Positions 8,853 through 63,163 of a stretch of 64,000 bases of DNA are shown here, piece after piece (the stretch's first letter is position 1; the number at the start of each line of letters is the position of its first letter). Origin of the DNA: Deltaproteobacteria bacterium. GTDB taxonomy: Bacteria; Myxococcota_A; Polyangia; Haliangiales; Haliangiaceae. The notes beneath the pieces are model-generated. The model was not told where the DNA came from and made no database searches. It saw only the letters and a program-made list of their open reading frames with translations. The DNA lies in NCBI GenBank assembly GCA_020630875.1, contig JAHDIH010000003.1:334071-398070 (forward strand). Direction: 5' to 3'. The position numbers and the translations under genes are program-made.

Positions 8853-8858
8853 TAGTGT
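8853..8858 (+). promoter_or_regulatory. Candidate -10 element, leaderless spacing, for the hydrolase gene
   Basis: TAGTGT ends exactly 6 bases before the ATG at 8865. No good -35 is visible (a T-run occupies the position). The start codon has no Shine-Dalgarno. This is a weaker member of the leaderless set described in the findings. Confidence 0.35.
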
Positions 8859-8864
8859 AGCTCC

Positions 8865-9740
8865 ATGATTGCGCCAGGCCCCAAAGCACCAACTGAAACT
8901 TTTGAGGTTCCGCGAAGTAAAGACGAGACCATTTACGGAGAATGGTTTCCAACCACGAGCGCCAAAGCAAACGCGCTCATTCTTCACGGTTACGCAGAAC
9001 ACTGTGGCCGTTACCGCGAAGTAGCGAACGTCTTGAATGCCTCAGGGCTCAGTGCCCTTAGCTTTGACTTTAGAGGGCATGGCCGTTCTACGGGACAAAG
9101 GGGCTTTATTCGCTCGTTCAGCGATTATCACGAAGACGTACTGCTCGCGATTGCAGAGCTCAACAAACGATGCGACCCAGCGCTACCGCTGGTTATTGTG
9201 GCTCATTCGAACGGGGCACTCGTTGCACTTCATATGTTGTGTTCACCAGCTCCTGCGATCACCCCAACATTCCTGGTGGTGTCGTCCCCATTTTTAGGAC
9301 TGGGAGTGGAAGTCCCAGCTGCTAAAAAAGCATTGGCTACTATTGCAGGGAAACTAGTGCCAACCCTCGCGCTTCCTAACGAGTTGACTCCTGACATGTT
9401 AACGTCGGACAAAGAAAAACAGAACGAGCGCGCCGCAGACACCCTGTGCCATGACGTAGCCAATGCCCGTTGGTACACTGAAGCAAAGTCCGCACAGGAA
9501 ATGGTGAAAAACCGCGCGCCAGACATGCGGGTTCCGTCCAGTTGGCTGGTCGCGGGGAACGACCAAATCGCCAATCCTGAGACTGCTAGAGCCGTTCGTA
9601 GCAAACTGACCGCTCAGAGTACGCTAACGTCGTATGATTCGATGCAGCATGAAATTTTCAACGAGTCCGACCGCGCCAAAGTCTTCGAAGATCTTTCTAC
9701 GGTAATCAGTGATCAACTCTTCCGCCCTTCAGAAAACTGA
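8865..9740 (+). CDS. Alpha/beta hydrolase, monoacylglycerol-lipase / S33 type
   Basis: The 291-residue protein is a serine hydrolase of the Hydrolase_4 (monoacylglycerol lipase-like) family. It shows the oxyanion-loop segment LILHGYAEHCGRY (residues 38-50), the strongly conserved FDFRGHGRSTGQRG (68-80), a nucleophile elbow AHSNGA with Ser115 (a variant of the usual GHSxGG), an Asp in AGNDQIANP and a His in MQHEIFNE near the C-terminus, so the triad looks intact. No signal peptide is visible, so it is probably cytoplasmic or membrane-peripheral. The likely substrate is a mono- or lysoglyceride, but this is inference. It is divergent from the TPR lipoprotein and lies upstream of a TetR regulator, which might control it. 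Confidence 0.88.
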   Translation: MIAPGPKAPTETFEVPRSKDETIYGEWFPTTSAKANALILHGYAEHCGRYREVANVLNASGLSALSFDFRGHGRSTGQRGFIRSFSDYHEDVLLAIAELNKRCDPALPLVIVAHSNGALVALHMLCSPAPAITPTFLVVSSPFLGLGVEVPAAKKALATIAGKLVPTLALPNELTPDMLTSDKEKQNERAADTLCHDVANARWYTEAKSAQEMVKNRAPDMRVPSSWLVAGNDQIANPETARAVRSKLTAQSTLTSYDSMQHEIFNESDRAKVFEDLSTVISDQLFRPSEN

Positions 9741-9824
9741 CGTAAAATCAGTGAATTACACCCATCGAACGATATTTTGCTACTAGATTTCAAGTACTTA
9801 GGGCGAGTATTGAAGTGTTCTCAC

Positions 9825-9839
9825 TTGAGTTAACCTCAA
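9825..9839. promoter_or_regulatory. Inverted repeat upstream of tetR gene, possible operator
   Basis: TTGAG-TTAAC-CTCAA has perfect 5-bp arms around 5 bases. A second small inverted repeat, AAGTG-TTCT-CACTT, lies just upstream (9813-9826). Both are in the AT-rich stretch before the TetR-type gene and are candidate regulator sites only. Confidence 0.3.
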
Positions 9840-9868
9840 TATTTTTTTTCCCACACTGCATTTCTCTG

Positions 9869-9897
9869 TTGACCAAAGCTCCCAGGGTGAGTAAACC
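9869..9897 (+). promoter_or_regulatory. Candidate promoter of the TetR gene with leaderless spacing
   Basis: TTGACC (9869-9874), a 17-bp spacer, TAAACC (9892-9897), then exactly 6 bases to the ATG at 9904. The -10 is weak, but it lies within the palindrome at 9887-9903, which fits autorepression. Confidence 0.45.
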
Positions 9898-9903
9898 ACT
9901 CAC
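9887..9903. promoter_or_regulatory. Palindrome abutting the TetR start codon, candidate autoregulatory operator
   Basis: GTGAGT-AAACC-ACTCAC is a perfect inverted repeat with 6-bp arms and a 5-bp centre, ending at the base before the ATG at 9904. TetR-family repressors commonly bind palindromes of this size next to their own gene. Binding here would block the proposed -10 and the start. Confidence 0.5.
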
Positions 9904-10551
9904 ATGACTACCGCTCAAGAGAGAAGACAGCAGGAACGACAGGCACGCCGCCGTCGGATTCAAGAGGCAGCTCGAGAAGTGTTTGCAGCCAAAGGCTACG
10001 CCAAAACATCGATCGAACAAGTCGCACGGCAGGCATCGCTGTCTGTGGGCGCGATTTACCTCTATTTCCGTTCTAAAGAGGACCTATACGTATCCCTCTT
10101 AGAAGAAACACTTTTGACTATCGATGGAGAACTGAAAACCATTCGTTCCTCAGGGAACCCTCAAGGTCTTAAGGCAGCGTGGAATTACCTATTTCAATGG
10201 GCTACCGCAGACGTGGAAGGAACTCGAATCCTACGTCTCATTTCCCAACCAGGTGTACGCAAACAACTTTCAGACCAAGTGGCAGAAGCAACGTCATCAG
10301 GTCTTGGACGTCTGCGAGAGCACTTCGGAGCACTCATCGCTGAAGGTGTTAGCAAAGATCGCTACCATTCGATAAGCCCTGGAGAAAGCGCAGACATAAT
10401 CTGGTCGCTGTTCCTTGGAGTACTTCAGTCAAGTGACGCTCGAACCAACCTGAGCATATCAGGAGCCACCCTGGAAGAATCAGCAGCTACCGCTTTCCGT
10501 ACGATTGAAGGAAGCTGGCTGAAAAATCAATCTGTAGCCGAAGCTGCATAA
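9904..10551 (+). CDS. TetR/AcrR-family transcriptional regulator
   Basis: The 215-residue protein has the standard architecture. A basic Arg/Gln-rich N-terminal tail (about 1-20) leads into a TetR_N helix-turn-helix (about 21-67, with FAAKGYAKTSIEQVARQASL and the highly conserved GAIYLYFRSKEDLY), and a divergent all-helical ligand domain makes up the rest. Such proteins normally repress neighbouring genes until a small ligand binds. A palindrome directly before the ATG suggests autoregulation. The ligand cannot be told from sequence. The adjacent lipase-like hydrolase and the FadL-like gene some 3 kb away would fit a lipid signal, but that is only inference. A strong terminator follows at 10569. 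Confidence 0.92.
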   Translation: MTTAQERRQQERQARRRRIQEAAREVFAAKGYAKTSIEQVARQASLSVGAIYLYFRSKEDLYVSLLEETLLTIDGELKTIRSSGNPQGLKAAWNYLFQWATADVEGTRILRLISQPGVRKQLSDQVAEATSSGLGRLREHFGALIAEGVSKDRYHSISPGESADIIWSLFLGVLQSSDARTNLSISGATLEESAATAFRTIEGSWLKNQSVAEAA

Positions 10552-10568
10552 GTTTCTGAAACGATCTG

Positions 10569-10599
10569 AAAAGAGCCTTCCTCGTGAGGGCTCTTTTTT
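10569..10599 (+). terminator. Rho-independent terminator after the TetR gene
   Basis: The 9-bp arms AAAAGAGCC / GGCTCTTTT enclose a small inner CTC/GAG pairing and run into six T residues. It isolates the TetR unit from the next gene. Confidence 0.9.
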
Positions 10600-10691
10600 G
10601 TTTCTTAGTCCATCGTTGACGCGAGCTGGTTGTACCAAAGTATCTGAGTTTGGTTCTTAATTGCCTACATCATCCTATGCGACTGTGAGGG

Positions 10692-11759
10692 ATGGTAAAA
10701 TTGTCAGTGGGGTTACTAATGATACTCGGTCTCGTCGGGCAGGCTGAAGCGGCAGACTTAGGATGTACCGAAAGTGGTGGCGTCTGCTGTTTGACGAGTG
10801 CGTCTTGCGACCAAACTCAGCCTGACTGCGATTGCGACGGGATTCCGGACGCCACTGATACCGATGATGACAACGATGGGGTTTGCGACGTAGACATTTC
10901 GTTGAACGTGGTGGCCACCGGATGCATTAATCGAGCAGGTGGAGACCCCTCACCACGTAACCCGCTGGTTTGCGGCGACTTCGACATGGACACGTGCGAT
11001 GATTGCTCAAGGGGCAACACTTGCTTCTGGGACTATAACGATCCGTCCAACGCTACGACGGAGGCAAACTATCTTGCATGCGTCACGGCTATCAGTGACG
11101 TGGGGGGAAATGGACTGGTAATCGGACAAGATGGTTTCGGACCAGCTGCGAACTTCAACACCTCCGATGATGGAGCATGGTTTGGCACAAACGACGGCGA
11201 GTGCCGAGCGGATGCCGACAACGACGGGATTCCAGATGCTTTCGATTCTAATCCAAACGACCCAACACAGTGTGGTGATAGTGATAACGATGGATGCGAG
11301 GATTGCAGCAACCAGGTAGACGGACTTGGAGCACTCGCCGATTTTGATCTAGGCCAACAAACCGATCCTACAATCTGCGCCAACCAAGGATTCACAGCTC
11401 CCTGCGACATTTATCGAAACGATGGGCCAGATGCAGATGGTGATGGATTCTGTGACGTGGGCGACGATGACGATGGTGATGGTGTCCCCAACAGCCAAGA
11501 CAGTGCCCCCAACGACCCGTGGGTTTGTGGCATAGACGCGGATAACGATGGATGTGACGATTGCGCATTCACCGATGGCGACAATCCTAATCCTGATGGC
11601 CCCGACCCAGCCGGTAATGTACCGTGCGTACCGTCAAATCAAAATCCGGGGGCAACCGCCGGGGGAGCCGGATGCAGCCACGGAAGCACCACGCTTCCGC
11701 TAGCACTACTATTGCTTGCCGCATTTCTTCGGAGCCGACGACGACGCATAATTCACTGA
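10692..11759 (+). CDS. Secreted Asp-rich calcium-repeat protein with MYXO-CTERM-like tail
   Basis: The 355-residue protein has a signal peptide (about residues 1-20, ending AEAA). The body is filled with thrombospondin type 3-like repeats rich in Asp, such as DNDGIPDA, DADGDGFCDV and DGVPNSQDSAPND, with many paired Cys. These normally bind Ca2+. The C-terminus carries a short GGAGCS segment, a hydrophobic helix (about 333-345) and a RRRR cluster. This is the layout of MYXO-CTERM sorting signals, in which an invariant Cys is retained after cleavage and the protein is displayed on the cell surface. The ATG at 10692 is the first in-frame start after a stop; its GAGGG is too close to be a good ribosome site. 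The binding role is unknown. Confidence 0.8.
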   Translation: MVKLSVGLLMILGLVGQAEAADLGCTESGGVCCLTSASCDQTQPDCDCDGIPDATDTDDDNDGVCDVDISLNVVATGCINRAGGDPSPRNPLVCGDFDMDTCDDCSRGNTCFWDYNDPSNATTEANYLACVTAISDVGGNGLVIGQDGFGPAANFNTSDDGAWFGTNDGECRADADNDGIPDAFDSNPNDPTQCGDSDNDGCEDCSNQVDGLGALADFDLGQQTDPTICANQGFTAPCDIYRNDGPDADGDGFCDVGDDDDGDGVPNSQDSAPNDPWVCGIDADNDGCDDCAFTDGDNPNPDGPDPAGNVPCVPSNQNPGATAGGAGCSHGSTTLPLALLLLAAFLRSRRRRIIH

Positions 11760-11765
11760 GTTAAA

Positions 11766-13352
11766 TCAATAGCAGTAGTCGTAGTCGCCATCGTTGTATC
11801 CGTCGCCGTAACCATCAGAGTATCCCGTATTGTAACCTGAGTCGCAGCTGGAGTCCCACTCGACCGAATACCCTGCTTCGTAACCACTGTCGTAGCTGGT
11901 CGTATACATGGCGTTAAAGCCATCAATGTACCCCGCATCGTAGGAGGCATCCGCCGCGTCGTAGTAACCACTGCTGTATCCGGCATTGTAACCGCTATCG
12001 TAGCCGGCAGCGAACCCGGCGTCATAGCCTATGGGATAACTGTCGTTATAGCAGCGAAGGTACGCCTCAGCTGCTCCATCTGCAAAACCTACGGTCTCAC
12101 CATCGCTTATCCCTGCGGCATACCCATCAACCAATCCCACGTTATATCCCGCCGACCTGCCAACAGGGATACCTTCCGCCCGTCCTGCTTGGTACTCGAC
12201 ATTTGCATCTTTGGCCGCATTGAAAGCATTCCAATAGGGCTTCATGCTGTACGTATCGGAGTAGCCTTGCTCAAAACACAGTTGCAGATATTTATCACGG
12301 TCCACTTCTTCGGAGCGTAACTTCCCAATGCCGATGAAGTTAAAACTGCCGCAACGACTACCATCGTAGTACCCCCAATCGTACCCATCCGAATGACCAT
12401 CGGGATAACAAGCTGCATAGCCATCTGAGTAACCATCGTTTTCGCCTGCGGTGTACCCGTCGTTACGCCCCTGTTGTTGTCCCAACGACGAACCATCCGC
12501 GTACCCCAAGGAATAGTCTACCCCATCTCCGGCACGGTACCCGTCTGTAAATCCGGCAGGGTAACCTTGATGGTATCCCGTCGCATTTCCATCTCCATAC
12601 CCGGCGTTGAATCCGTCATTGTCACCGCTAACGCAGGATGCACTGTCGGCAAGACCCGCTTGGTGCCCTAGGTCGTATCCAGTATCGTATCCGGCGGGAT
12701 AGGCCGTATTGTGGTCGAAACCTTCCGCATAACCTGTGGCGTATCCCGAACTGTACCCGTCGGCGTAGCCATCATCAAACGTAAGAGCTTCCCCATCCGC
12801 AGTCCCTCGAACCGCATCCTCCGCCATTTGCATGTCTGCAGCCGCAATCCCATCGCTTCGGGACGTCGAGAGATCCAACGCAATGGAGCAATCCAGATAC
12901 CCCTTAGCCCGCAAAGAAACGTTCGATTTTGAAACCGCTGAGGATTCTTCACCCCTACTATAGGCCAAAGTCATTTCTTGCGATGCGGCGCCCTCTTCAA
13001 GCGGGCTGAATCGAATATTGATGGTGCAGCGGCCAGTTTGCGCTGGCAAGACGAGTCCGCTGATGCAGGTTCCGGAAGTTAGCAATTCAAACGGAGCGGT
13101 GATCGAAAGTCCCAATGGCGATACGTCCCGAAGTACGGCGTCAGCATCTCCTTCATTAATCACCTCAAACGAAGTCTGAGTAGATCGAAGAAGTGGGGTG
13201 TCAGCGAAGGTCTTATCCGATTCTTTATCTACCGGTGCAATCGTAAGCAGTGGCCCTGAGGGGTGTTGCGTGCACCCAACCCCCAACACACTAGTCAAAA
13301 CGCCTGCCGCCAACACCTTTGTCATTGCTAGCGGACGTCTCCCAACCTTCAT
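11766..13352 (-). CDS. Lipoprotein with ASH/Ig-like domain and a very long GX3 (Gly-Tyr) tetrapeptide repeat
   Basis: I do not know this protein as a named family. The 528 residues start with a basic n-region and hydrophobic segment ending in GVGC (Cys27), so it is probably a lipoprotein. Residues about 57-149 resemble a choice-of-anchor D/ASH Ig-like domain (SFEVINEGDADAVLRDVSP, RCTINIRFSP). From about residue 194 to the end the sequence is dominated by a four-residue period with Gly at position 1 and often Tyr at position 2 (GYAD GYSS GYAT GYAE), broken by single Cys and by one charged non-repeat block (about 320-370). GX3 runs of this type are known from Yae1/LTO1 and FliH. The start at 13352 is preferred over longer forms, which would overlap the FadL gene. 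It ends 6 bases from the convergent MYXO-CTERM-like gene. Confidence 0.75.
   Translation of the reverse strand: MKVGRRPLAMTKVLAAGVLTSVLGVGCTQHPSGPLLTIAPVDKESDKTFADTPLLRSTQTSFEVINEGDADAVLRDVSPLGLSITAPFELLTSGTCISGLVLPAQTGRCTINIRFSPLEEGAASQEMTLAYSRGEESSAVSKSNVSLRAKGYLDCSIALDLSTSRSDGIAAADMQMAEDAVRGTADGEALTFDDGYADGYSSGYATGYAEGFDHNTAYPAGYDTGYDLGHQAGLADSASCVSGDNDGFNAGYGDGNATGYHQGYPAGFTDGYRAGDGVDYSLGYADGSSLGQQQGRNDGYTAGENDGYSDGYAACYPDGHSDGYDWGYYDGSRCGSFNFIGIGKLRSEEVDRDKYLQLCFEQGYSDTYSMKPYWNAFNAAKDANVEYQAGRAEGIPVGRSAGYNVGLVDGYAAGISDGETVGFADGAAEAYLRCYNDSYPIGYDAGFAAGYDSGYNAGYSSGYYDAADASYDAGYIDGFNAMYTTSYDSGYEAGYSVEWDSSCDSGYNTGYSDGYGDGYNDGDYDYCY
11769..12773 (-). repeat. DNA encoding degenerate 12-bp (GX3) tandem repeats
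   Basis: The sequence encodes Gly-(Tyr/Phe/any)-x-x units at 12-bp spacing, seen on the plus strand as recurrent gTAnCCn-type blocks (for example GTAACC, GTATCC, GTACCC). The repeats are diverged at DNA level, with no long identical copies, so they look ancient and protein-selected rather than a recent expansion. Confidence 0.8.
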
Positions 13353-13372
13353 TAATTCAAGTTGAGTTTCAT
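13352..13372 (-). other. Seven-codon mini-ORF between FadL and GX3 lipoprotein genes
   Basis: Right after the FadL-gene TAA comes ATG with five sense codons (MKLNLN) and a TAA whose last two bases overlap the ATG of the GX3 lipoprotein gene (TAATG). It could re-initiate ribosomes onto the GX3 start, which has no Shine-Dalgarno. It may equally be chance. Confidence 0.25.
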
Positions 13373-14707
13373 TTACTTGAGTTTGTACTTTAGCCCAAGT
13401 CCGACTAGTAGCCATTGTTGTTTGTAGGTTCCATCATTAACAAATACCGGCGGGTCTTCGGCGCCTCTAATGGGATTTACTTGTGCTTCGCGTCCATTGC
13501 CGGGAGCAATGGTATGAGTAGTACGTGGAGTAGCCGCAAGCGCTAAGCTCCACGTGTACTTTCCTTTCTGATAGCGAAGTCCAGCGCCAAGAAAGTGCTT
13601 GTCTAAATCAATGAGCTTAACCGATACGTTCTCGTCGGGACTTGCCCCGGTTTCGTAAGCGTAACCAGCAGAGAGCGTCAGTGTGTCCGACAGAGAGTAC
13701 TGTCCGCCGATTCGCGCGGAGTAGACGTTGTTAAAACTAAAGTCCAAGTCAATGGCACCAAGCTCATAGGTACCAATGCCAACCACGTTTTCAATAGTCG
13801 CGTCTCTTGGGTCAATACGAATACGATCGAGCATTTTCCAAAACTCCGCTTGCAAGGAAAGTTCCGCTCTCCACTTTTTTCCTCTTATCTCAATACCAGC
13901 GGCAGCAATTGGTGCGTACCAGAAATCTAAGTCTGCCTTGTTACCGTTTATCTCGGCACTGTCAAAAATATTATCGCTTGGAAGTGTTACCTCGATGCTA
14001 CCGCCACCAGTAACTTTAGCTGGCGCTTGCAGAGAAAGACCTACTCGCATGTTGTCTTTAGGTAAATAGACCGCACCAACCGATAAGCTGGGCGAAAGAA
14101 AGCTCCAAATATCAGCTCTAACTACCGCATCGAAGTCTGGATCTTCCGGAGCACAAAACGTTTGCCCTGGACAAGAGGAGACGACAGAGGTCGCAGCCAA
14201 ACGATACACAAAGTTTTGCACCATACCGCCAACGTACAGTTTATCCGAAACTTTATACGAAGCGCCAAAGCCTAACGCAATGGCTGCGGTTTGCGACATA
14301 TCTCCCATCGAGTACCTTTGTGGCCCGTCAATATCAAACTTCGGAAGCCCTCCGTAGGGAGCGTACAAACCTGCCGCAAACCGAATTTTGCTGTTGAACT
14401 TCCAACTTGCCGCTAAGGTTGGAATCGGTAACCCTTTGTTCTGATCCTTTACCGATGGAAGAGCGTTCCCTCCGGAATCTACACGCTCGTACGATAGAGG
14501 CCTCGATACGAAGCTAAAGTCGACATGCAGATTGGTCCCTGTCTCAAAAGCGATGCTCGCGGGGTTCGTGCTCCAGAACTCGAGTCCTTCTCCACCAGCA
14601 ACAGATGCCCCGCCCCGCATTACCGATGCGACTCCTCTTGTTGGCAGCTGAAGTCCGCCTGCGGAAGCTTCGGTTGCGACCAAAAGTAATACGATAAATT
14701 TCTTCAT
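13373..14707 (-). CDS. Outer-membrane hydrophobic-compound transporter, FadL/OmpP1/TodX family
   Basis: FadL-family barrels move long-chain fatty acids or other hydrophobic molecules across the outer membrane. The 444-residue protein has a signal peptide (about 1-16, ASAGG), a plug-like N-terminal region with the family hallmark pattern around STNPASIAF (NPA motif) and VASVMRGGASVAGGEG, and a beta-barrel to the end (YKLK). AAGLYAPYGG and several alternating aromatic strands match the family. Its ATG overlaps the stop of the giant lipoprotein gene (ATGA), indicating coupled expression, and the GX3 lipoprotein follows 20 bases downstream. The substrate is unknown. Confidence 0.85.
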   Translation of the reverse strand: MKKFIVLLLVATEASAGGLQLPTRGVASVMRGGASVAGGEGLEFWSTNPASIAFETGTNLHVDFSFVSRPLSYERVDSGGNALPSVKDQNKGLPIPTLAASWKFNSKIRFAAGLYAPYGGLPKFDIDGPQRYSMGDMSQTAAIALGFGASYKVSDKLYVGGMVQNFVYRLAATSVVSSCPGQTFCAPEDPDFDAVVRADIWSFLSPSLSVGAVYLPKDNMRVGLSLQAPAKVTGGGSIEVTLPSDNIFDSAEINGNKADLDFWYAPIAAAGIEIRGKKWRAELSLQAEFWKMLDRIRIDPRDATIENVVGIGTYELGAIDLDFSFNNVYSARIGGQYSLSDTLTLSAGYAYETGASPDENVSVKLIDLDKHFLGAGLRYQKGKYTWSLALAATPRTTHTIAPGNGREAQVNPIRGAEDPPVFVNDGTYKQQWLLVGLGLKYKLK

Positions 14708-17700: not shown

Positions 17701-17919
17701 TGGAACGTCGTAACCAAAGCAATACGTTTTTGCCCTTGCACCACTAACATCAACAATTCCATCGCCATCAGCTAAGTCAGCATGGTAATCGAGACGACGA
17801 CAAAACAGCGATGCTACTTCTTCACCAAAACTGCCATGACCATCGTCGACCCTTTCAGGAAGTGGTTCGCTGCATGCCGTTGCAAACACCAGAAAAAGGG
17901 CGGTTCTCTGCATGAACAT
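14704..17919 (-). CDS. Giant lipoprotein of unknown function, coupled to the FadL-like gene
   Basis: The 1071-residue protein has a short signal with the lipobox ATAC (Cys16). The mature part begins with an Asp/Gly segment (HADLADGDGIVDV) and then appears largely alpha-helical, with no transmembrane segments and a repeating character of helix pairs (for example around SMLTSPLTSGFFDMADGIP, and SKVVSTILSDSDNVEAVVAG). I recognise no named domain. The ATGA overlap with the FadL-like gene implies a joint role at the outer membrane, possibly as a periplasmic or surface partner of the transporter; that is inference. A TATAGG hexamer ends 6 bases before the ATG at 17919. A start two codons later (17913) is possible. 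Confidence 0.8.
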   Translation of the reverse strand: MFMQRTALFLVFATACSEPLPERVDDGHGSFGEEVASLFCRRLDYHADLADGDGIVDVSGARAKTYCFGYDVPTSAPPQAQAFQQDRLLTEQTLDHLVPEDTAAKLQTILASKEVHLAHDDGVTRGAANALAEFSLTLSEDSESLTSIAHFVNQEGLSAKPGGMIAALTSSPEVSTSLAQFLAEVAPGGRARDGFSQMLTGVGASLRNFGAGDEQEILSIASDYLLSEQPLINGTSSPAVVLDERGKAKVTRVSGSWPMGLVDKNNDGLADTDGAGNFIDTNGQPVVVETPFPHPNSPGLLPRDSLGRVLSAPGGSTVYEYRDTGKTVMSALTRNAPLFFDPETQPLLNLLGGMQKMLGLRSESTRTYPNGEEITYQGFDGNDSPAMDLVHSLTTLLRHQEIDELLVGTRELFRTKESELAHFAEAAVATARRLDNYPNAVLANNQTLIDDLLPHLQAMAAHPGLHEQLIEELARPQTTTMMRKFAKSMKFRDKFTFGVNQQVVGDFTSPVDRSFTDSGSNRSLMQRILYLVSDSNRLKYCNKQGARVTDPLNLGIPIKTYDECALLQIDNVAVFFVQSIAYKKQNGAVVYDNGVPVRKAELPFNWDSTLIELLVTDNMMEDMVGIEGFRTHPTPEALTRVLLLDPAPSFLAEIADPVETKHGVKYTQVHSDALPSWEKDNFYSDLRPLVQVFADHDAEEILVDILTVLYQHWPSEDSTDHNRVEDTQGYAKASNLQSFEPFLIETLEDPDFVPSLVGLLQAVDATSAGGQPLARSIDEMVGFVLSEVPGLRTWGGDSEIPRLDGGPHDSLTPAHLMVYGLRRAQDAVASDVNWPVGTKGMVDALVRGENVSGWRFKNRDLVGLSIATIDLLRDRISEHDAFGDRDDWARQTLPEDALSMLTSPLTSGFFDMADGIPADVRRELSKVVSTILSDSDNVEAVVAGSATMIDLMAQGEEFYSVLRLVGTGITGDNGWADALVRLNHRLLSVDSEGVVLGIINRMFSDSGNGRLPVAHLSTVVASVSRDQPTQDASKAHTTADVQAIADSISGFFNDKDRGFPKIIRIIEERNR

Positions 17920-17925
17920 AATACG

Positions 17926-17931: not shown

Positions 17932-18000
17932 CCACCATACTCTTCCCTACAGCGAAAGCCCTGACGCGCCGCGGCGTGCATTATGTTGCGACTCGATGCG

Positions 18001-23393: not shown

Positions 23394-23399
23394 AAACTA
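23394..23399 (-). promoter_or_regulatory. Candidate -10 element, leaderless spacing, for cmk
   Basis: TAGTTT lies on the minus strand exactly 6 bases upstream of the cmk ATG; the -35 position (TAGGTA) is weak. No Shine-Dalgarno competes. Confidence 0.35.
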
Positions 23400-23439: not shown

Positions 23440-23468
23440 TTGTCATCGCAACTTCCTCAAGCTAGACT
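23440..23468 (+). promoter_or_regulatory. Promoter of the 23475 membrane gene with leaderless spacing
   Basis: TTGTCA (23440-23445, one mismatch to consensus), a 17-bp spacer, TAGACT (23463-23468), then exactly 6 bases to the GTG at 23475. It is one of the best examples and fixes the gene start. Confidence 0.6.
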
Positions 23469-25902: not shown

Positions 25903-25908
25903 TATATT
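25903..25908 (+). promoter_or_regulatory. -10 element with leaderless spacing for the DUF4350-moxR-DUF58 unit
   Basis: TATATT ends exactly 6 bases before the ATG at 25915. This is the closest match to the TATAAT consensus in the leaderless set, but the -35 position (AAGCAC) is poor. No Shine-Dalgarno precedes the ATG. Confidence 0.5.
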
Positions 25909-33477: not shown

Positions 33478-33600
33478 CGGATTCCTTGGGCTCTCACCAG
33501 CACCACCATCATCGATCGCTCTGACATATCGGGGGGTTGTAACGCAATTCAGTCGATTTGACCTAGCCCCAATTTGCCCTGTGGTCTAGATTAGGAGTCG

Positions 33601-35247
33601 ATGCGAATAATTGTCGCCACTTGGCTCGTTATTACGAGCGCTCAATCCTTCGCAGCCCCCACTCTGAACGTGAAAGGACGGGCTGAAATTGAGCTTGACC
33701 CCGTTTCTCGGAAGAATGAACTGGTGGCAGTTGCCGGAACGCTGCGGGACCGTTACGCCAAAACACCGATTCCTAATCAAGGGGTTACCGTTACCATTGG
33801 CGACCAGCTGCAAACACCATTAACGGACGACGAAGGATACTTTACCGCCTCTTTCCCCATCACGGATGGTATCTACGACGTCAGTGCGGTGTTCGCAGGA
33901 GCGCCGGAGTTTTCCGCGGCTCGAGTGTCGTTGGAAAAGGTAGATGTTTCAAAAACGGCATTAAAAATTTCGTTAGAAGTTCCTAACGTCGCGGATCATG
34001 GAACATCACTGACCGTCCGAGGACAAGCATCGGGAAAAAATTCCAACCCGACGTTGGTATTGGAAGCGACGTTTAATGATGGCGCTGAAGACGTTCCACT
34101 CGAAGATGTCCAAGTCACTTCAGGAAAATTTCAATTCGAACTTACTAAGGAACAAATCGGAGAGCCTGGTGAAAAGTCGATACGCTTATCCTTTCCAGGT
34201 AACGCGGGATTCAACCCAGCAACGTCCAAGGCCAATTTTATTTCACGCGCTACTACCACACTTTCGCTCGTTCTCAAATCAAGCGCAATATTAGCCTACG
34301 AAGCTAGGCAAACTTTTACAGGGACCCTCACCACCAAAGAACGTTTACGTCCTATCCCCAAAGCAGCCATTACTATTGTTTCTGGTTCGAGAAGCGTCGC
34401 TCAAATCCTCACGGATTCCAGTGGCAACTACGAAATAAGTCTACTGGGCGCCGAACTTGGAGAAGGCCCGCATCAACTTCAAGCGTTGTTTTCCCCCACG
34501 TCTGGTCGTTTGAGTCCGAGTCGTTCGGCACCGCTTTCTCTTAAAGTTCAAGCTCCCCAACCTTCTTCGCCTTGGCCCAGCGTCATCGTGTTGTTTGCGG
34601 TACTAGCGTTCGTCGGCCTCACTGCCTTTCTTTACCAGAAGACCAAAAATACTCCAGAACGCTCACCAACGTCTTCGGCACCACCAGTGAGAGGGCTGAA
34701 CAAAGCAAGACGCAAAACCTCCCGCAGAGCGAATCACTTTACCGGTACCATTGTATCAATTCCCAAAGACGTGCCTCTAAGCGGTACACTATGCTGGAAC
34801 GAACAAGAGGTATTCAGCTCACCAGACGGACGGTTCTCCATTGAGTCCCTGCCCCCTGGCAACCACTTAGTGACGTGCACGGCCGAAGGGCACGTTCCAG
34901 AGACGGTCGCCGTCAATATGCCCCACAAAGGGGAGTTTTCAGAAGTTGCGATCGGCTTATTCCCTTTCCGAGAAGCCATGTTTGAGAGTTACCGACAGCT
35001 TGTGCTGCCACTACTTCCACAGAAACTAGTAACGGTTGCGACACCTAGACAGACCATTGATTACGCCAAACGCCACTTCGAAGAAGGAAAATTGACTGAG
35101 CTTACCCTTCTCGTAGAGAAAGCCTACTTCGCTGAAGCTACCGTGAACGAAATGACACTTGCTCATGTCAATCAACGAATCGACGCATTAACTGAGATTC
35201 CGGTTGCCACTTCTACGTTTTCATCTATAAATCACCCCCATGTTTGA
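33601..35247 (+). CDS. Membrane protein with Ig-like/carboxypeptidase-regulatory-like domains, possible DUF4129-like tail
   Basis: The 548-residue protein has a signal peptide (about 1-19), a periplasmic region with two or three Ig-like/CarboxypepD_reg-like units ([21 protein letters not shown] near residue 42 and [21 protein letters not shown] near 240), one membrane helix (about 323-345), a basic cytoplasmic linker and a further carboxypeptidase-regulatory-like domain (about 382-450). The last 50 residues ([20 protein letters not shown] and following) resemble the end of DUF4129 proteins that accompany MoxR/DUF58 systems, but this is a weak match. It overlaps ftsY by 8 bases. TAGATT lies 8 bases before the ATG, and an AGGAG only 3 bases before it. 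Confidence 0.65.
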
Positions 35248-47017: not shown

Positions 47018-47046
47018 TTGACACCGAAGGCCACGTAGCCCATATT
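47018..47046 (+). promoter_or_regulatory. Promoter of the small basic protein gene with leaderless spacing
   Basis: Consensus TTGACA (47018-47023), a 17-bp spacer and CATATT (47041-47046), then exactly 6 bases to the ATG at 47053. It has the clearest -35 in the leaderless set and lies right after the TamA-like stop. Confidence 0.65.
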
Positions 47047-47052
47047 CCCGTC

Positions 47053-47154
47053 ATGGGCCGCGGAGACAGCAGAAGAACACTAAAGATGAAACGTAGACGA
47101 AGTCAAGCCAAGCTTAAGGCTCGGCGATTGAAGAAAATTACCGCTGCGAAGTAA
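47053..47154 (+). CDS. 33-residue highly basic protein, ribosomal THX-like
   Basis: This small ORF encodes [12 protein letters not shown] followed by a run of Lys/Arg and Ala (total 33 aa, about half basic). The opening MG(R/K)GD is like ribosomal protein bTHX, which sits in the 30S head. The C-terminal half differs from the usual THX motif, so it may be a divergent THX, another ribosome-bound peptide, or a nucleic-acid-binding peptide. It lies between tamA and the thioesterase, and the thioesterase TTG begins 1 base after its stop. A near-consensus promoter with 6-base spacing argues that it is real and leaderless. I have no further evidence for its function. Confidence 0.6.
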
Positions 47155-48371: not shown

Positions 48372-48400
48372 TTGGCACCATGGCGGGAGTAACGCACAAT
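48372..48400 (+). promoter_or_regulatory. Promoter of the 48407 lipoprotein gene with leaderless spacing
   Basis: TTGGCA (48372-48377, one mismatch), a 17-bp spacer and CACAAT (48395-48400), then exactly 6 bases to the GTG at 48407. No Shine-Dalgarno is seen. Confidence 0.55.
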
Positions 48401-48406: not shown

Positions 48407-49606
48407 GTGAAGCACTGGCCAATCGCATTACTGAGCCTGTTGGCCTGTAGAGACTCCATAAGCGACTTTGACTCGCTGCCAATCAACATTCAATACCTAG
48501 ACACGAACATGGCAACCATGCGATTGGAGATAGATGGAAACGTAAAGTCTGCTCTTATAGACACGCTATCGCCGTTAACCATGGAACATAATTTGGAAGA
48601 AGGCCGAAAGGATACGGAAGTACTCGTAATGGGAAATACATCACAAGGATGGCAATCCCGTGCTGCATTTACCTCCGCAGATGTTTGGCAATACGCGCTT
48701 TGCGACGCCGCCAACTGCAATGCGGGCGAAACGGGAAGTTTTCCAGTAGAAGCCATACTCGGAGCTGACTTACTTTCGAAAAATGCACTTCGATTTTCAG
48801 ACCAGGAAGTAACAATCGTGCCTGATGTAGTTGGTAACTCTGAGGATCGAGCTAAGCGATGCGACGCCGTATTCTCCAAAACGATGTTTGGCGGAGGACA
48901 ACTAGCCATCGCTGATACGGTGATAAAATATACCGGCCGTCGCCCGACGGTTGGAGCGTGTTTGGCCTATAACGAGGACCCCACAAAGCTGGATGCTGAT
49001 GAGCAAGGTGTAGACCTAACGTTGGTTATTGCTAGCGCTGTTCCTAAAACAATGATTGGTCAATCAGCGTACCTCCGCTATCGGAATTACGTAGGCGCCA
49101 CCAATGCTCCTGATGTAGACACTCTTCCAACTGCGGCGGTTTCGCTTTATGGCAATCAATACAACGTAGCGTTAGCGACCCTTCCCAAACTAGCACTCGT
49201 CGGACAATTGTCTGACTTCAGAGGGCCTTGCTGGGAGCGAACCGCCAATATTACGCAACGACAAGGCAATGGCAGATGCCTGCAAGGCATCGTTTGCCCA
49301 TGCGACGAAGGTGAGCTTTCATGCCGCGCGGGCGCCGTCGCGCAATTCGACAAGACATTCGATGTGTACGTGGTTCCGGATACCATCCCGATTCTGGCCA
49401 CTGTGAGGAATGAATTAGGGGCGCTGACTTCTCAGGTCGATGGATTATTAGCAACCGGAGACTTACAAGGGACCGTTTTTGAACTTGACTACCCCAATAA
49501 TCGAGTTGTGCTTGCATGCGACGATGCGAATCCTAACTGCGAAGTATTTCCTCAAATCATCACGAAGGGCGAAGTAAGTGCACTCGCCCAGTGCGACTCT
49601 CCTTAG
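48407..49606 (+). CDS. Lipoprotein with degenerate aspartyl-protease-like features
   Basis: The 399-residue protein begins with a lipoprotein signal ending in LLAC (Cys14). The mature part shows patterns reminiscent of retropepsin/pepsin-like folds: LEIDGNVKSALIDTLSP (where a catalytic DTG/DTS would be, here DTL), VEAILGADLLSKNALRF (the common GxDxL flap-side strand), and VDGLLATGDLQGTVFELDYPN at the end. The catalytic Gly/Ser is replaced, so activity is doubtful; a binding role is as likely. A Cys-rich segment (near 277-318, CWER, CLQG, CPCDEGELSC) suggests disulfides. The start GTG has an excellent leaderless promoter. The stop overlaps the convergent aroA stop. Family unknown; the fold assignment is tentative. 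Confidence 0.7.
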   Translation: MKHWPIALLSLLACRDSISDFDSLPINIQYLDTNMATMRLEIDGNVKSALIDTLSPLTMEHNLEEGRKDTEVLVMGNTSQGWQSRAAFTSADVWQYALCDAANCNAGETGSFPVEAILGADLLSKNALRFSDQEVTIVPDVVGNSEDRAKRCDAVFSKTMFGGGQLAIADTVIKYTGRRPTVGACLAYNEDPTKLDADEQGVDLTLVIASAVPKTMIGQSAYLRYRNYVGATNAPDVDTLPTAAVSLYGNQYNVALATLPKLALVGQLSDFRGPCWERTANITQRQGNGRCLQGIVCPCDEGELSCRAGAVAQFDKTFDVYVVPDTIPILATVRNELGALTSQVDGLLATGDLQGTVFELDYPNNRVVLACDDANPNCEVFPQIITKGEVSALAQCDSP

Positions 49607-54008: not shown

Positions 54009-54012
54009 CTAC

Positions 54013-55463: not shown

Positions 55464-55816
55464 GCCGACTTGCGCCACTGTTCTTCGCTGTCATGCTCGC
55501 AAGTGGCTGCGACTCGACGGCAAAAGCTCCCTCCCCATCATCAGACGACAACAAACTAATCGTGTTTACAGCGGACTGGTGCGCCTCTTGCCAGGAACTT
55601 AAAAAAGTCATGGCTTCGGCCAAAGTTGCCAAGGCTTTGGAAACCTATTCCGTAGTTGTCTACGATCAAACCAAAGAAACCAAAGAAGCACTCCTTGTGG
55701 CCAAAGAGTATGGCGTCTCTCGCCTTCCTTTTGTTGTCAAGGAAAGAAATGGGCAACGAATGGCGCCGTACGGTGGCGTAGTGGAAGCTTCAGACTTACT
55801 GAACTACTTAAAATGA
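55460..55816 (+). CDS. Thioredoxin-fold lipoprotein
   Basis: The 118-residue protein has a lipoprotein signal ending in ASGC (Cys17), then a single thioredoxin-like fold with VFTADWCASCQEL (CxxC, about 35-47) and the cis-Pro strand SRLPFVVKER. It is probably a periplasmic thiol reductase or isomerase receiving electrons from the adjacent DsbD, perhaps substituting for the missing alpha domain of that protein; this is inference from the ATGA overlap and the shared pathway. No other active-site oddity is visible. Confidence 0.88.
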   Translation: MSRLAPLFFAVMLASGCDSTAKAPSPSSDDNKLIVFTADWCASCQELKKVMASAKVAKALETYSVVVYDQTKETKEALLVAKEYGVSRLPFVVKERNGQRMAPYGGVVEASDLLNYLK

Positions 55817-55824
55817 TATAGTTC

Positions 55825-55853
55825 TTGCACCAAACACCTCGCAGCACTAGCCT
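55825..55853 (+). promoter_or_regulatory. Candidate promoter of the C45-like gene, leaderless spacing to GTG
   Basis: TTGCAC (55825-55830), a 17-bp spacer and TAGCCT (55848-55853), then exactly 6 bases to the GTG at 55860. The ATG at 55857 would be only 3 bases from the -10, so the GTG is favoured. Confidence 0.45.
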
Positions 55854-55859
55854 CCAATG

Positions 55860-58245: not shown

Positions 58246-58300
58246 CTGTTTCTCCCCTCTTTCCGTCACAATAGCGGTCGATTGCCCTTTTAAAATACCC

Positions 58301-58318
58301 AAACATTGGGCAACGTTT
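58301..58318. promoter_or_regulatory. Imperfect inverted repeat in the FHA/lipoprotein divergent gap
   Basis: AAACATT-GGGC-AACGTTT pairs 6 of 7 bases. It overlaps a TTGGGC hexamer (58306-58311) that, with CACTAT at 58329-58334 (17-bp spacer), could be the -35/-10 for the gene at 58381. Weak but worth noting. Confidence 0.25.
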
Positions 58319-58380
58319 GCGTCGGTTCCACTATCATAGAAGCAACGGCCTTGCGTCGCAATGGAAGGTGAGGATAACTC

Positions 58381-59379
58381 ATGCTCAGACTACTACTTTT
58401 TACACTCATAGCCGGATGTTCGGGCGCCCCACAGGTAGCCACTTTTCCCGAAAATCCCCATACAACCAAAGCTGGAGACTATTGCGGCAAGTTTGAGGGC
58501 ACCGCGTTAGATCAAAACAACGCCCCCGTCGCCAATGCCGTCGTTTGGGCCACCTGGACCAAAACGAACGGACAACTGCCAGCAGGGTTCGAGGAAAAAC
58601 TTACGTCCACCGATGCTAATGGTAAGTACGTAATCCCCAAACTTAAGGTGTGCGATCATTCTGTTTCAGACTTTGTCCTCTACATTTATAAAAAGAATCA
58701 TATCGCTTACCGCTCAGATAGACTGTTTCCAAGCTTTGAGCGTCGATTTGACTTCTACCAAAGATCGAACCAAGCCGTGATGCCTGGGCTAAATTCAGGG
58801 TTCTCTCATAAACGACACCTCGAGTACTTGGGAAGTGCTCCCGCAATCGCTACTAACTTCGAATGGGAGCAAGCGTTGGCCGAGTCCGAAGGCGATGATG
58901 TAGAAATAGCAGTGCCAACCGGCATTAATCGTCGCATTGTCGCATCTCAGCTATTGTCACCCAAACTTATAGAAGACGTATTAAGTTACAAGGGGGACTA
59001 CACTGCTGGGCCGTTGGGTGACCAACCAGACACGGACATGTATTCGACCATGCACTTGCAAGCCAACAACAGCGACCAGAGTTACGATATCGCGGTGAGA
59101 ATGTGGACATTTTCAAACGCGCAAGCCGCCAGGGAATCGTTTGTTGGAATGGTGGACTCACTTCCGAATGCGAAAGAAAAGAAGGCTCTTCCTTGGGGCA
59201 ACGTGGACGGCGTGATCGGAGACCAGGGGCCAGTTAAGGCAATGGGACTTGTAGACTACTCCCGAAACATCGCGCTGATTTTAACTTGCGGAAACAACCT
59301 GTGCAAAAACGAATCAGATCTAGAACTGATTACCAAAGAAACTTTTAAAGTATTGGAGTCGTTGTGGCCCGTAAAATAA
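58381..59379 (+). CDS. Lipoprotein with carboxypeptidase-regulatory-like domain
   Basis: The 332-residue protein has a lipoprotein signal ending in IAGC (Cys13). Residues about 38-110 form a carboxypeptidase-regulatory-like beta domain (FEGTALDQNNAPVANAVVWAT, TSTDANGKYVIPKLKVC), and the rest is a mixed fold with TFSNAQAARESFVGMVDSLPN and a final KETFKVLESLWP, somewhat like DUF-type gas vesicle-unrelated envelope domains; I cannot name it. GAGGA 7 bases before the ATG marks the start. The next gene overlaps its end by 16 bases, suggesting joint expression. Confidence 0.75.
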   Translation: MLRLLLFTLIAGCSGAPQVATFPENPHTTKAGDYCGKFEGTALDQNNAPVANAVVWATWTKTNGQLPAGFEEKLTSTDANGKYVIPKLKVCDHSVSDFVLYIYKKNHIAYRSDRLFPSFERRFDFYQRSNQAVMPGLNSGFSHKRHLEYLGSAPAIATNFEWEQALAESEGDDVEIAVPTGINRRIVASQLLSPKLIEDVLSYKGDYTAGPLGDQPDTDMYSTMHLQANNSDQSYDIAVRMWTFSNAQAARESFVGMVDSLPNAKEKKALPWGNVDGVIGDQGPVKAMGLVDYSRNIALILTCGNNLCKNESDLELITKETFKVLESLWPVK

Positions 59380-60482
59380 CACTTATACTCACCTTTCTCT
59401 CACTATCTTTGCCAGCACACGCGTGGGAATCGCAAACCCACGCCGGTATTGCCGCGCGAGCTGCGGCTCAATCTAACCTAGACGAGTTACTTAAGGCCGC
59501 AGGTAAAAAAAGAGGCCTAGAAACCGTACTGACACTGAAGAAGTCTGAAGCTCCAAAAATCTACGCTACGGTGGCTAAGTTCAGCCCATCGTGCGGTTTT
59601 GTACCTCATAACGAAAAACTACCAGCTAAAAGTTGGATCGCGCTCGGTGCTGCGGTTGCAGATTTGAATAGTGGACAGCATCACTTCTTAGACCCGACTA
59701 ACAAACGTGGCCTAAAAAGTGATCCGCCCGTTGCTTCAAAGTTAACTTCACGCGCGTTAAAGCGAAAGTCGCATAAAACCGGTTTGAGTGCCCTGAAATG
59801 GCTAGGACGCACCGACAGGAGCTACCCGATTGAAAAGCTTTCTATGCAACTCAAAAACATTAGCCAACTTTCAGATGCAGAACTCGCCAAACTTCTAGTG
59901 TCCATAGGCAATGCGCTGCACGTCCTGTCCGATATGAGTTCGCCAGCCCACGTCAGGAATGATGCGGAGTCATTGGTGCAAGGAACCAACAGAGGGTCGC
60001 TTATGGCTCATGGCTCTCGATTCGAAAAGGTTGCGCATTTAGCGTTTGGCAGAATCGCCATGCCGAACAAGCGTGTTGCTGTCCCAGTCTTCTCCACCTG
60101 GGAGGAATACTTTCACAACTCAAGTCAGTCAGGACTCGCCGACATCGTTTCTCGGCGATTTTTTTCAGAGTCGACGCTACCTCGTACTATCCCAATTCGT
60201 CCTGGCAAAGACCTAAAGCCAAATACTTCGCTAAGCAGTAAGATCGCCGGTAGTTTGCAGCGACCGAAGCCACGAGTGCCAGAGGAGCTGGATATCATCG
60301 CAGCTCAAAGCCAGTGGGCTAGACTGGAAAACAAAAGAGGGACCTGCATCGCAGAATACAAAGTTACCAAATTCAAGCTTCATTGGAAGATGTCGGACCA
60401 GTGCATGCGAGAGCAACAAAAAGAACTGCTTCCGGTAACCATCGCTTACGGTGCAGGACTAATCAATACCTTAGCGAAGTAG
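59364..60482 (+). CDS. Zinc-dependent phospholipase C-like / S1-P1 nuclease-fold secreted protein
   Basis: The 372-residue protein has a signal peptide (about 1-20, cleaving before WESQTHAG, where Trp1 and His residues resemble zinc ligands of zinc phospholipase C). The helical core contains IGNALHVLSDMSSPAHVRND (about 180-199), the classic HxxxDxxxPxH pattern of this superfamily. Members cleave phosphatidylcholine or nucleic acids in the periplasm or outside the cell. It could be the host-membrane or scavenging type; substrate not predictable. GTG start at 59364 inside the previous gene. Confidence 0.8.
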   Translation: MARKITLILTFLSLSLPAHAWESQTHAGIAARAAAQSNLDELLKAAGKKRGLETVLTLKKSEAPKIYATVAKFSPSCGFVPHNEKLPAKSWIALGAAVADLNSGQHHFLDPTNKRGLKSDPPVASKLTSRALKRKSHKTGLSALKWLGRTDRSYPIEKLSMQLKNISQLSDAELAKLLVSIGNALHVLSDMSSPAHVRNDAESLVQGTNRGSLMAHGSRFEKVAHLAFGRIAMPNKRVAVPVFSTWEEYFHNSSQSGLADIVSRRFFSESTLPRTIPIRPGKDLKPNTSLSSKIAGSLQRPKPRVPEELDIIAAQSQWARLENKRGTCIAEYKVTKFKLHWKMSDQCMREQQKELLPVTIAYGAGLINTLAK

Positions 60483-60565
60483 GCATTTATTCTATGGCGC
60501 TGGACGTTACTCAGCGAATGAGTGTACTAAACTGAAAAAATCGCCTGGTTGTGCTAAGTCAGGTC

Positions 60566-61180
60566 ATGCACGCCATTTTTTCTATTCTCCTTGTTTTAGT
60601 AGGGAACGCTTGCTCTGCCAAATCACCAGCGGTACCGCTTAAGTTTGCAGAGATCGAATCTGTACGTCTTCATAAGGCGCCGCTTTCATCCCCTGAGTTT
60701 CCAGCGCCACTCAAACAACTTTGGGGACGTTATAGCGACTTAGAGAAACAAGCCCCGCCTCCAGCAAACGAGATGCAAAACTGGTTAAAAACACGTCTCG
60801 ACACGGTGAAAGCGATTGCAGCCATAAAGAAAGTGGATAGAGAAACTCACAACTTCATCATTGCGGCAGCACTTAGAGATACAAGAAGTAAGCTACAGAA
60901 TGCTGACGTCAGCCTAGATGTAAGAAAACTAATAGTGAGTGAAATTGCTAAGCACACGCTGGTCAGGATCGAAGCGTGCATTCCCGCGGTTAAGAAAACG
61001 TTAAGCAACAAATGCAAAGCGTGGGCAGCCCAAGAAAGAAAGTGGTTAGGCAAAGCGCCGATCTCAGCAGGATCAAAACAAAAGGCAAAAATGCTTGGTC
61101 CAATAAAGTCGGGCGAAAGTTGCCCTGAGGGCTACGAAAAAATTGACTCCGAAAAATTCTGTATAAAATTCTTGGATTAA
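60566..61180 (+). CDS. Small lipoprotein, Lys-rich, helical, unknown function
   Basis: The 204-residue protein (start ATG at 60566; a GTG at 60551 is possible) has a signal segment ending in GNAC (about residue 16) and a mature region that is mostly helical and rich in Lys/Arg/Ala. It has a pair of Cys near 139 and 150 and a C-terminal CPEGYEKIDSEKFCIKF box that could form a disulfide. No family is recognised. The weak -35/-10 TGGACG and TACTAA (60502-60531) with a short leader would fit a normal transcript. It converges on the S9 peptidase gene 16 bases away without a terminator. Confidence 0.65.
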   Translation: MHAIFSILLVLVGNACSAKSPAVPLKFAEIESVRLHKAPLSSPEFPAPLKQLWGRYSDLEKQAPPPANEMQNWLKTRLDTVKAIAAIKKVDRETHNFIIAAALRDTRSKLQNADVSLDVRKLIVSEIAKHTLVRIEACIPAVKKTLSNKCKAWAAQERKWLGKAPISAGSKQKAKMLGPIKSGESCPEGYEKIDSEKFCIKFLD

Positions 61181-61196
61181 CCTGCCACTATCCCCG

Positions 61197-63128
61197 TCAC
61201 GGCCCCAACAAATGCTTGGTTAAAAACATTACCGCAAGTTGGTTGTACAAGTCCCGATTTGGCTTTTTCTTAAAGCCATGCCCCTCATCCATTGCTAAGT
61301 AATACCAAACGTCTTTGCCGTTTTTCTCTGCAGCATTCACAATTTGCTCCGCTTCACTTGCTGGAACGCGAGGATCGTTTGCACCTTGAGCCACAAACAA
61401 TGCAGACTTAATTTTTTCTACGTGATTAAGTGGAGATATTTTCTGTTGAAACTCACGCATCTTTGGATCTCGCTCGTCTCCATACTCTGCTCGTCGAAGA
61501 TCACGTCTGTAATCCGCGGTGTTTTCCAAAAATGTCACAAAGTTAGAAATTCCTACGACTTCCACTCCTGCAACGATTCGGGCGCTGTAGTGCATAAGCG
61601 ACGCCATTACCATATACCCACCATACGACCCCCCAATGACCGCCACCTTTTTGGCGTCCAGGTCAGGAGCGCTGTCAATCCAATCTAGTAACGCACCAAT
61701 GTCTTTCACGGAGTCTTCACGCTTGAAGCCATTGTCTAGCTTTACGAACGTCTTACCGTACCCAGTGGAACCACGCACGTTCGGAAGGAGAACAGATATG
61801 CCCTGATTCAGTAGATATTGTGTCCTTGCAGAATACCAGGGCCGACTTTGGCCCTCAGGGCCACCGTGAATGGAAACAACGACGGGCCTTGGACCTTCTC
61901 CACTAGCCTTGTAATAGAATGCAGAAATTTTCTTTCCATCAAAAGTCGTATATTCGATGAGTGTTGGCTTCACCAGCGAGCTTCTTGCCACGTCACCTAG
62001 TTCACTTTCGGTATACCGAGAAAACTTCTTTTCGGTGAACGAGTAGACAAAAGCGTCTCCGTTCGAAGTGGGCCCCGACAAAGTCATCATTAACTTGTTG
62101 CTCGCTCCTGGGGCAAACCCTAAACCACCAACCAAGGTATCTGGGGCCGCAATCGCTTGGTAGGAATACTTTGGCAACTGCAACTCATAAAGTTTCCCAT
62201 AGCCATTCTCATTGGTAGTAAAGACCGCACGCTTGTTATCCGAGGCTACTTCAAGCGATCCCACGTTCCAATTGAGTCCCTCTGTGAGATTTTTCCATTT
62301 CCCATCATTAAGGTTAAGCAAATACAGCTTTTGGAACTCTCCGTCTTTGTCACTTACAATTAGGACTTCATCATCGCTAGCGCCGAAGCGAGCTTCGGGG
62401 TTGGCGGTTTGTCCTTCAGGCGAAAGTCGCTTAAGCTTTCCAGTTGCGACCTCCAGCAAATACACGTGCGACTCGTTGATAGAAACGTATTTTCCAACCA
62501 ACAAATGGGTTCCATCACTAGACCAATCATGGGCGTACCACCAACCATCAGTTTCTAGAAGAAGTTTGCTGTCACCAGCAACGCCATGAGATACCCATAA
62601 GTCAAATGACTTTCCGTTTCGTCCGTTACTGTTGTAAACCATCTTCTTGCCATCTTTTGACCATAGCGGAGCACCGTTTCGGCTTTTGCCATCGGTAAGT
62701 TGTTGCGTCACACCGGTCTTCAAATCTCTGCGGAACAGTTGGTATTTCTCGTTCCCGCCAACATCCGCGAGATAAACCATAGCGTTTGAATTCCCAGGTA
62801 CGAATGAGGCGGAAGAGACCGGTTCTGGTAGAAACGTTACTTGTTGCCGGGCGCCCAATGGCTGCTTCACCAAGTGGACCTGCGACGTATCGCCAAAACG
62901 CGTGCGTACCAGTAAGTGGCCATTCGCTGCCATCGAAAGTGCGGAGGCACTTCTTCCCGAAGTGTAACGAGCCAAATCGCGCTTAAGCTCTTCTGGAATC
63001 TCTGGGGTGCCTCGCAGACGAACCTCCCCTACCTGCCTATCCCACTTAGACTGTCCAGTCTGAGACGCGGTGTTCGTGGTTAGTGACGAACTACAAGAAA
63101 CGGCTACGAAAAATAGTAAAAATCTCAC
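61197..63128 (-). CDS. Prolyl oligopeptidase-family (S9) lipoprotein
   Basis: S9 peptidases cleave peptides, often after proline, with a beta-propeller that gates access to an alpha/beta hydrolase. The 643-residue protein has a lipoprotein signal with AVSC (Cys12), a beta-propeller (about 60-370, with repeated WSKDGKK/WSSDGTH type blades, WDR/TolB-like), and the peptidase domain with VSIHGGPEGQ, GGSYGGYM (nucleophile Ser about residue 500), GANDPRVP (Asp) and DEGHGF (His), so the triad is intact. It is likely periplasmic or surface-exposed. The GTG at 63128 is preceded by TTGATT-17-CAGAAT with exactly 6 bases to the start. Confidence 0.92.
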   Translation of the reverse strand: MRFLLFFVAVSCSSSLTTNTASQTGQSKWDRQVGEVRLRGTPEIPEELKRDLARYTSGRSASALSMAANGHLLVRTRFGDTSQVHLVKQPLGARQQVTFLPEPVSSASFVPGNSNAMVYLADVGGNEKYQLFRRDLKTGVTQQLTDGKSRNGAPLWSKDGKKMVYNSNGRNGKSFDLWVSHGVAGDSKLLLETDGWWYAHDWSSDGTHLLVGKYVSINESHVYLLEVATGKLKRLSPEGQTANPEARFGASDDEVLIVSDKDGEFQKLYLLNLNDGKWKNLTEGLNWNVGSLEVASDNKRAVFTTNENGYGKLYELQLPKYSYQAIAAPDTLVGGLGFAPGASNKLMMTLSGPTSNGDAFVYSFTEKKFSRYTESELGDVARSSLVKPTLIEYTTFDGKKISAFYYKASGEGPRPVVVSIHGGPEGQSRPWYSARTQYLLNQGISVLLPNVRGSTGYGKTFVKLDNGFKREDSVKDIGALLDWIDSAPDLDAKKVAVIGGSYGGYMVMASLMHYSARIVAGVEVVGISNFVTFLENTADYRRDLRRAEYGDERDPKMREFQQKISPLNHVEKIKSALFVAQGANDPRVPASEAEQIVNAAEKNGKDVWYYLAMDEGHGFKKKPNRDLYNQLAVMFLTKHLLGP

Positions 63129-63134
63129 GTTGAG

Positions 63135-63163
63135 ATTCTGTAGTGAGCCGCAGTATTAATCAA
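63135..63163 (-). promoter_or_regulatory. Promoter of the S9 peptidase gene with leaderless spacing
   Basis: TTGATT (63158-63163) sits 17 bp upstream of CAGAAT (63135-63140) on the minus strand, and CAGAAT ends exactly 6 bases before the GTG. The -35 overlaps the stop codon of the upstream gene. Confidence 0.5.

Follow-up and report, generated by a model that had tools for sequence, protein, structure and literature searches.

A 64,000-nucleotide stretch (the window) of contig JAHDIH010000003.1, positions 334,071 to 398,070 of the forward strand in the draft genome GCA_020630875.1 of an uncultured bacterium, was examined in the present study for promoters that lie directly against start codons. 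The original prediction named seven window genes, encoding a TetR-type regulator, a membrane protein, a DUF4350 protein, a 33-residue basic protein, a product labelled a lipoprotein, a C45-like protein and an S9 peptidase. At each, a -10-like hexamer was said to end exactly six bases before a start codon with no usable Shine-Dalgarno (SD) site, with a TTG-type -35 hexamer separated by a 17-bp spacer at six of the seven (not 25915) and with GTG as the start of four. Direct reading at positions -12 to -7 and -35 to -30 confirmed the hexamers, the spacers and the four GTG codons, and a model trained outside the window gave a negative SD score at all seven starts. The strict form TAnnnT occurs at three of the seven sites and CAnnnT at three others, while the TetR site is without the final T. 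Ranked against the 3,295 ATG/GTG codons of the window, which is the basis of the p values of these sites, the seven starts reached p = 0.0003-0.0118 (top 0.03-1.2%), all scoring best at a distance of six bases with a 17-bp spacer.

The six-base promoter-to-start pattern is real in this genome, far beyond chance. We consider it very probable, from the sequence evidence presented here, that sigma-70 promoters yield leaderless mRNAs starting on or near the start codon at close to half of the genes.

A genome-wide peak six bases before start codons

The genome is a 4.07-Mb draft in 17 contigs, with a GC content of 49% in the sampled part. It was sampled as 40 stretches of 20 kb plus the window, and the final set, window included, comprised 824 kb and 546 usable genes after two stretches were left out: L089, which is all N, and L029, which repeats 8,076 bases of L022. 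Some intermediate sets drop L089 only (including those behind a 58-site count and the window model below), and earlier ones keep both. Start codons were called from coding statistics and the codon itself, with upstream information unused; the counts exclude genes of <100 codons and genes scoring low for coding. The excluded stretch L089 spans 20 kb of contig C5 (820001-840000). Contig C13 repeats part of C7 letter for letter over both segments examined (3,210 and 8,076 bases; L005/L006 and L022/L029), and such assembly redundancy may explain part of the 6.1% contamination estimate.

Genome-wide scoring of starts, proposed with the original prediction, gave a sharp peak: TAnnnT ends six bases before the start in 55 of 546 genes, with 20 sites each at five and seven bases, 15 at eight, and a mean of 8.9 (maximum 16) over offsets 15-44 (Poisson p = 2e-25 for 55). 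The pattern had been searched for after it was noticed, and several hexamers begin with an in-frame TAG or TAA, as expected if chance matches had been picked by eye or if stops just upstream of genes had been mistaken for promoters. For the genome this explanation is refuted, and we give it almost no credence: the peak is seen in stretches outside the window, TA[CT]nnT, which carries no in-frame stop at its beginning, occurs 24 times at six bases where the mean is 4.2, the 58 sites at six in the set lacking only L089 compare with 7-17 at in-frame offsets 15-42, and in Escherichia coli TAnnnT stands at six bases in only 1 of 128 genes. The strict motif is present in all six sampled contigs with >3 counted genes, and a contaminant is therefore an unlikely source. 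When 560 genes from outside the window were scanned, unseeded, for three-letter patterns spanning up to six columns (28,160 tests), G.TA, TA...T, T..TA, TG..A and TG.T ranked highest, in one shared register, with TTG at -35 to -33 eighth; these are the extended -10, the -10 and the -35.

A model with three classes (promoter, SD or neither) was trained without the window, on the remaining stretches, because the named sites had been picked by eye. Starting from soft seeds (TANNNT, TTGACA and AGGAGG) and uniform distances of 0-15, it converged on TAnnnT ending six bases upstream (weight 0.53; distances 5-9 combined, 0.96), with a -35 of the TTG type and a spacer of 17 bp (0.61). With distances of 0-30 allowed, the mode was again six (weight 0.52). 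When halves of the data were held out, the promoter-class fraction was 0.41 and 0.51, compared with 0.007-0.047 for controls shifted by 11, 20 or 31 bases; the 128 E. coli genes gave 0.00 with this genome's model and 0.04 and 0.00 with their own held-out models. About 40-50% of the predicted genes in the sample fit the promoter class, a fraction that depends on the method.

The fitted distances also bear on how exactly transcription starts at the codon. Many genes might use the same promoters with transcription from 1-4 bases upstream of the codon, giving very short leaders, and the tails at seven (0.13-0.16), eight (0.07-0.08) and nine bases (0.08-0.09) are in keeping with this. The mode is nevertheless exactly six, with about half of the weight (0.47-0.55), so the usual sigma-70 start, whose position is set relative to the -10, would fall on the codon, and distance five is used too (0.09-0.11). 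Short leaders at many genes are possible but rather unlikely, and transcription beginning on or beside the codon is the reading we prefer.

TTG occupies -35 to -33 in 46 genes, whereas offsets 0-25 average 11.7; it stands there in 13 of 55 genes having the -10 versus 33 of 491 without it. The extension TG at -15/-14 follows suit (15/55 versus 41/491). Among the 55, TG and a TTG at most one base out of place occur jointly in one gene and neither in 25 (p = 0.04; p = 0.012 and 0.006 in slightly larger sets). SD-like 4-mers precede 2 of the 55 genes having the -10 and 99 of the 491 others. Genes lying ≤15 bp from a co-directional upstream gene have a mean probability of 0.24 for the promoter class and 0.57 for the SD class, compared with 0.50-0.66 and 0.22-0.31 in the remaining gene-context groups. 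The TA motif might instead serve translation or reflect a preference for A/T-rich upstream sequence, with no promoter involved, and its position does overlap that of ribosome sites. Such a role is, however, hard to square with an enriched -35 TTG that is commoner when the -10 is present, with a TGn extension linked to the -10 and with a class depleted inside operons; we regard it as already disfavoured and very improbable, and promoters remain the preferred explanation.

The GTG excess among -10 genes does not reach significance in the final set (14/55 versus 82/491, p = 0.13), with p = 0.017 in a larger set that includes the repeated stretch, and the two groups show no significant difference in TTG starts either (p = 0.24, final set). 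The fitted GTG excess in the promoter class (0.32 versus 0.10) comes from starts picked by the model itself. The genome encodes a housekeeping RpoD (L001, 728 aa), residues 483-727 of which are closely similar to solved RpoD chains and presumably contain the regions that bind the -10 and the -35. This RpoD also has a long N-terminal lysine- and alanine-rich stretch (22-420) before the usual sigma regions.

Candidate promoters and genes in the window

Within the window 41 genes were called, 18 with a promoter-class probability >0.5 and 16 with an SD probability >0.5, so that the named sites (Table 1) are part of a larger set, which includes 35240, 33601 and 53997. Four weaker six-base cases had also been proposed. 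Those at cmk and 8865 are plausible, and those at 17919 (p = 0.13 versus window codons) and 38954 (p = 0.33) are unsupported and may be chance. The genes cited as contrasting examples with ribosome sites held up in part: smc (p = 0.018), 36542 (0.003) and 58381 (0.031) have high SD scores, FHA has one (0.013) only with the start 58245, and rpsA is weak (0.06-0.12).

Table 1 Predicted promoter elements and associated genes in the window (p, rank against window codons)
Feature	Position	Strand	-35	-10	Start	p	Remarks
TetR-type gene promoter	9869..9897	+	TTGACC (9869-9874)	TAAACC (9892-9897)	ATG 9904	0.0015	
TetR-family regulator, predicted leaderless	9904..10551	+					NCBIfam TetR-type matches, all under curated cut-offs; start posterior 0.99
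Membrane-protein gene promoter	23440..23468	+	TTGTCA	TAGACT	GTG 23475	0.0006	
DUF4350 gene -10	25903..25908	+	none (AAGCAC at that place)	TATATT	ATG 25915	0.0118	DUF4350 match
33-aa basic gene promoter	47018..47046	+	TTGACA	CATATT	ATG 47053	0.0018	
33-aa basic protein, predicted leaderless	47053..47154	+					Conserved from residue 1 in relatives
Promoter of gene labelled lipoprotein in the original prediction	48372..48400	+	TTGGCA	CACAAT	GTG 48407	0.0021	
C45-like gene promoter	55825..55853	+	TTGCAC	TAGCCT	GTG 55860		C45 match under curated cut-off
S9 peptidase gene promoter	63135..63163	-	TTGATT (63163-63158)	CAGAAT (63140-63135)	GTG 63128	0.0024	Peptidase_S9
cmk -10, weaker	23394..23399	-		TAGTTT	23387	0.018	
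Hydrolase gene -10, weaker	8853..8858	+		TAGTGT	8865	0.034	
SRP-GTPase gene -10-like, six bases upstream	35228..35233	+		TAAATC	35240	0.003	Spacer 18; absent from the original prediction
-10 eight bases before start	33587..33592	+		TAGATT	33601	0.0052	Absent from the original prediction

At the C45-like gene, GTG 55860 suits the promoter model (p = 0.0003) and the overlapping ATG 55857 does not (p = 0.10), and the former is the predicted start. The gene starting at 48407 had no match in Pfam or NCBIfam. The open reading frame (ORF) for the 33-residue protein was missed by our own gene finder. It is encoded in 26 of 36 genomes (this one included) at E ≤ 0.1, is conserved nearly end to end and has no NCBIfam match. 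The best matches all begin at residue 1, and the start codon indicated by the promoter is therefore the conserved one. As a guess, the product might be a small RNA- or ribosome-binding protein.

Recurrence of the signal in related genomes

The MYXO-CTERM model TIGR03901 matches 18 of the 19 genomes searched among the relatives, counting this one (two matches), and none of 14 control genomes; given this distribution, the lineage looks like a member of the Myxococcota. No 16S rRNA was found in this assembly, and partial matches in 2 of 36 relatives showed no 3'-end (anti-SD) motif. Four relatives were sampled in depth. Two belong to the same family: G001, with held-out fractions of 0.21 (controls 0.003-0.009) and 0.34 (0.11-0.25), and G003 (GC 73%), with 0.31 (0.007-0.028) and 0.58 (0.06-0.15), one of the two fits for each having unclean controls with these small training sets. 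A third, G084, belongs to the same class and gave 0.34 (0.02-0.04) and 0.20 (0.002-0.007). The strict TAnnnT motif at six bases was found in 15 of 265 genes in G001 (mean 2.1), 19 of 255 in G003 (0.8) and 10 of 248 in G084 (0.9). No peak was seen in G042, from another class of the same phylum, with TAnnnT at six bases in 2 of 236 genes versus a mean of 2.6 and fits of 0.21 (controls 0.21-0.23) and 0.36 (0.21-0.26). The signal recurs in the family and class of this genome and is missing from the one genome sampled from another class, a single genome being thin ground for judging that class.

In a first pooled test on the cmk contigs of relatives, two genomes contributed just six genes, and the high-GC pool (183 genes) showed a small excess at 5-9 bases. 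The cmk orthologues themselves, of which a P-loop pattern read 15 at 30 loci (that of the window not included), carry TAnnnT 7-9 bases before the start in 7 of the 15 readable loci, compared with 1 of 203 internal starts.

Probable leaderless expression and its possible extent

The original proposal, of a widespread pattern in which sigma-70 promoters begin transcription on the codon's first base, is supported by the sequence tests: the six-base peak, the 17-bp TTG or the extended -10, the loss of SD sites at the same genes, the depletion inside operons, the near-zero controls in this genome and E. coli and the recurrence in relatives. RNA polymerase with RpoD would begin at the first base of the codon, or one to two bases from it, directed by a TAnnnT -10 that is helped either by the extension TGn or by a TTG-type -35 across a spacer of 16-18 bp (17 in most cases). 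The mRNA would then begin with AUG or GUG, with no leader and no SD site, and ribosomes loaded with initiator tRNA would recognise this 5' codon directly, as in other prokaryotes; genes inside operons would more often rely on SD sites. A leaderless initiation route through IF2 and initiator tRNA is described in the available part of PMC10783764.

Several observations weigh against this account or narrow it. The 5' end could sit about one base either side of the codon, and some genes may therefore have leaders of 1-3 nt. The readable cmk orthologues place the hexamer at 7-9 bases and none at six. Among 138 six-base sites that the model selected, in part by their -35, 16 have both TG and TTG (p = 0.26), so only in the unselected set do the two tend to replace each other. 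The window has a lower promoter-class fraction (0.31), with strict TAnnnT at six bases in only 3 of 43 genes. All starts come from our own gene finder instead of a curated annotation. Deinococcus deserti has been reported as rich in leaderless genes, but the same pipeline gave its plasmids (248 genes; 87 only in earlier runs) fractions of just 0.07 and 0.16, the second with controls of 0.10-0.14. The six-base peak is present there (12/248 versus a mean of 1.2) and the mixture fraction is low and unstable, so that absolute fractions depend on the method.

Leaderless expression of this kind is already known, and what is added here is its extent and the lineage. In older taxonomy the delta-Proteobacteria included the myxobacteria. 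For that group, the available part of PMC3160421 lists leaderless predictions in 8 of 33 genomes, averaging 15.8% (range 5.7-20.6), compared with which the fraction here is higher, by a different method. The same source gives predicted leaderless genes in 207 of 953 bacterial genomes, most strongly in Actinobacteria and Deinococcus-Thermus, and 'TA-led' genes in 86 of 89 actinobacterial genomes (about 20% of genes). As far as described there, these resemble the present genes in lacking an SD site and in having a TAnnnT -10 at a constant, short spacing to the start; the present genome differs in phylum, in its GC content (49%) and in that either a -35 at 17 bp or a TGn extension is clearly visible. 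In Deinococcus-Thermus, the accessible portion of PMC12340547 reports an ORF-adjacent -10 motif at 6-7 bp in about 30% of ORFs on average, acting as a promoter by transcript and eGFP reporter evidence. Motif and distance are the same, whereas the phylum differs, the -35 and extended -10 are both visible here and our case is a prediction from sequence. A literature search by titles returned nothing evidently on leaderless expression in myxobacteria.

We lean, though only slightly, towards leaderless expression as a main mode across a whole class of Myxococcota (here at close to half of genes), with either of two promoter forms, which can partly stand in for each other, set directly against the codon (one with the TTG -35, the other with the extended -10), SD sites kept mainly inside operons, and the trait lost or never present in another class of the phylum. 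As the trait occurs in this genome and three relatives of the same class and not in one genome of another class, the change could be placed on a tree. If this is true, gene callers based on ribosome sites may misplace many starts here (as with 55857 versus 55860) and may miss small genes such as that for the 33-residue protein, and the lineage would provide, beyond Actinobacteria and Deinococcus, a further group for studying why leaderless translation comes to be widespread.

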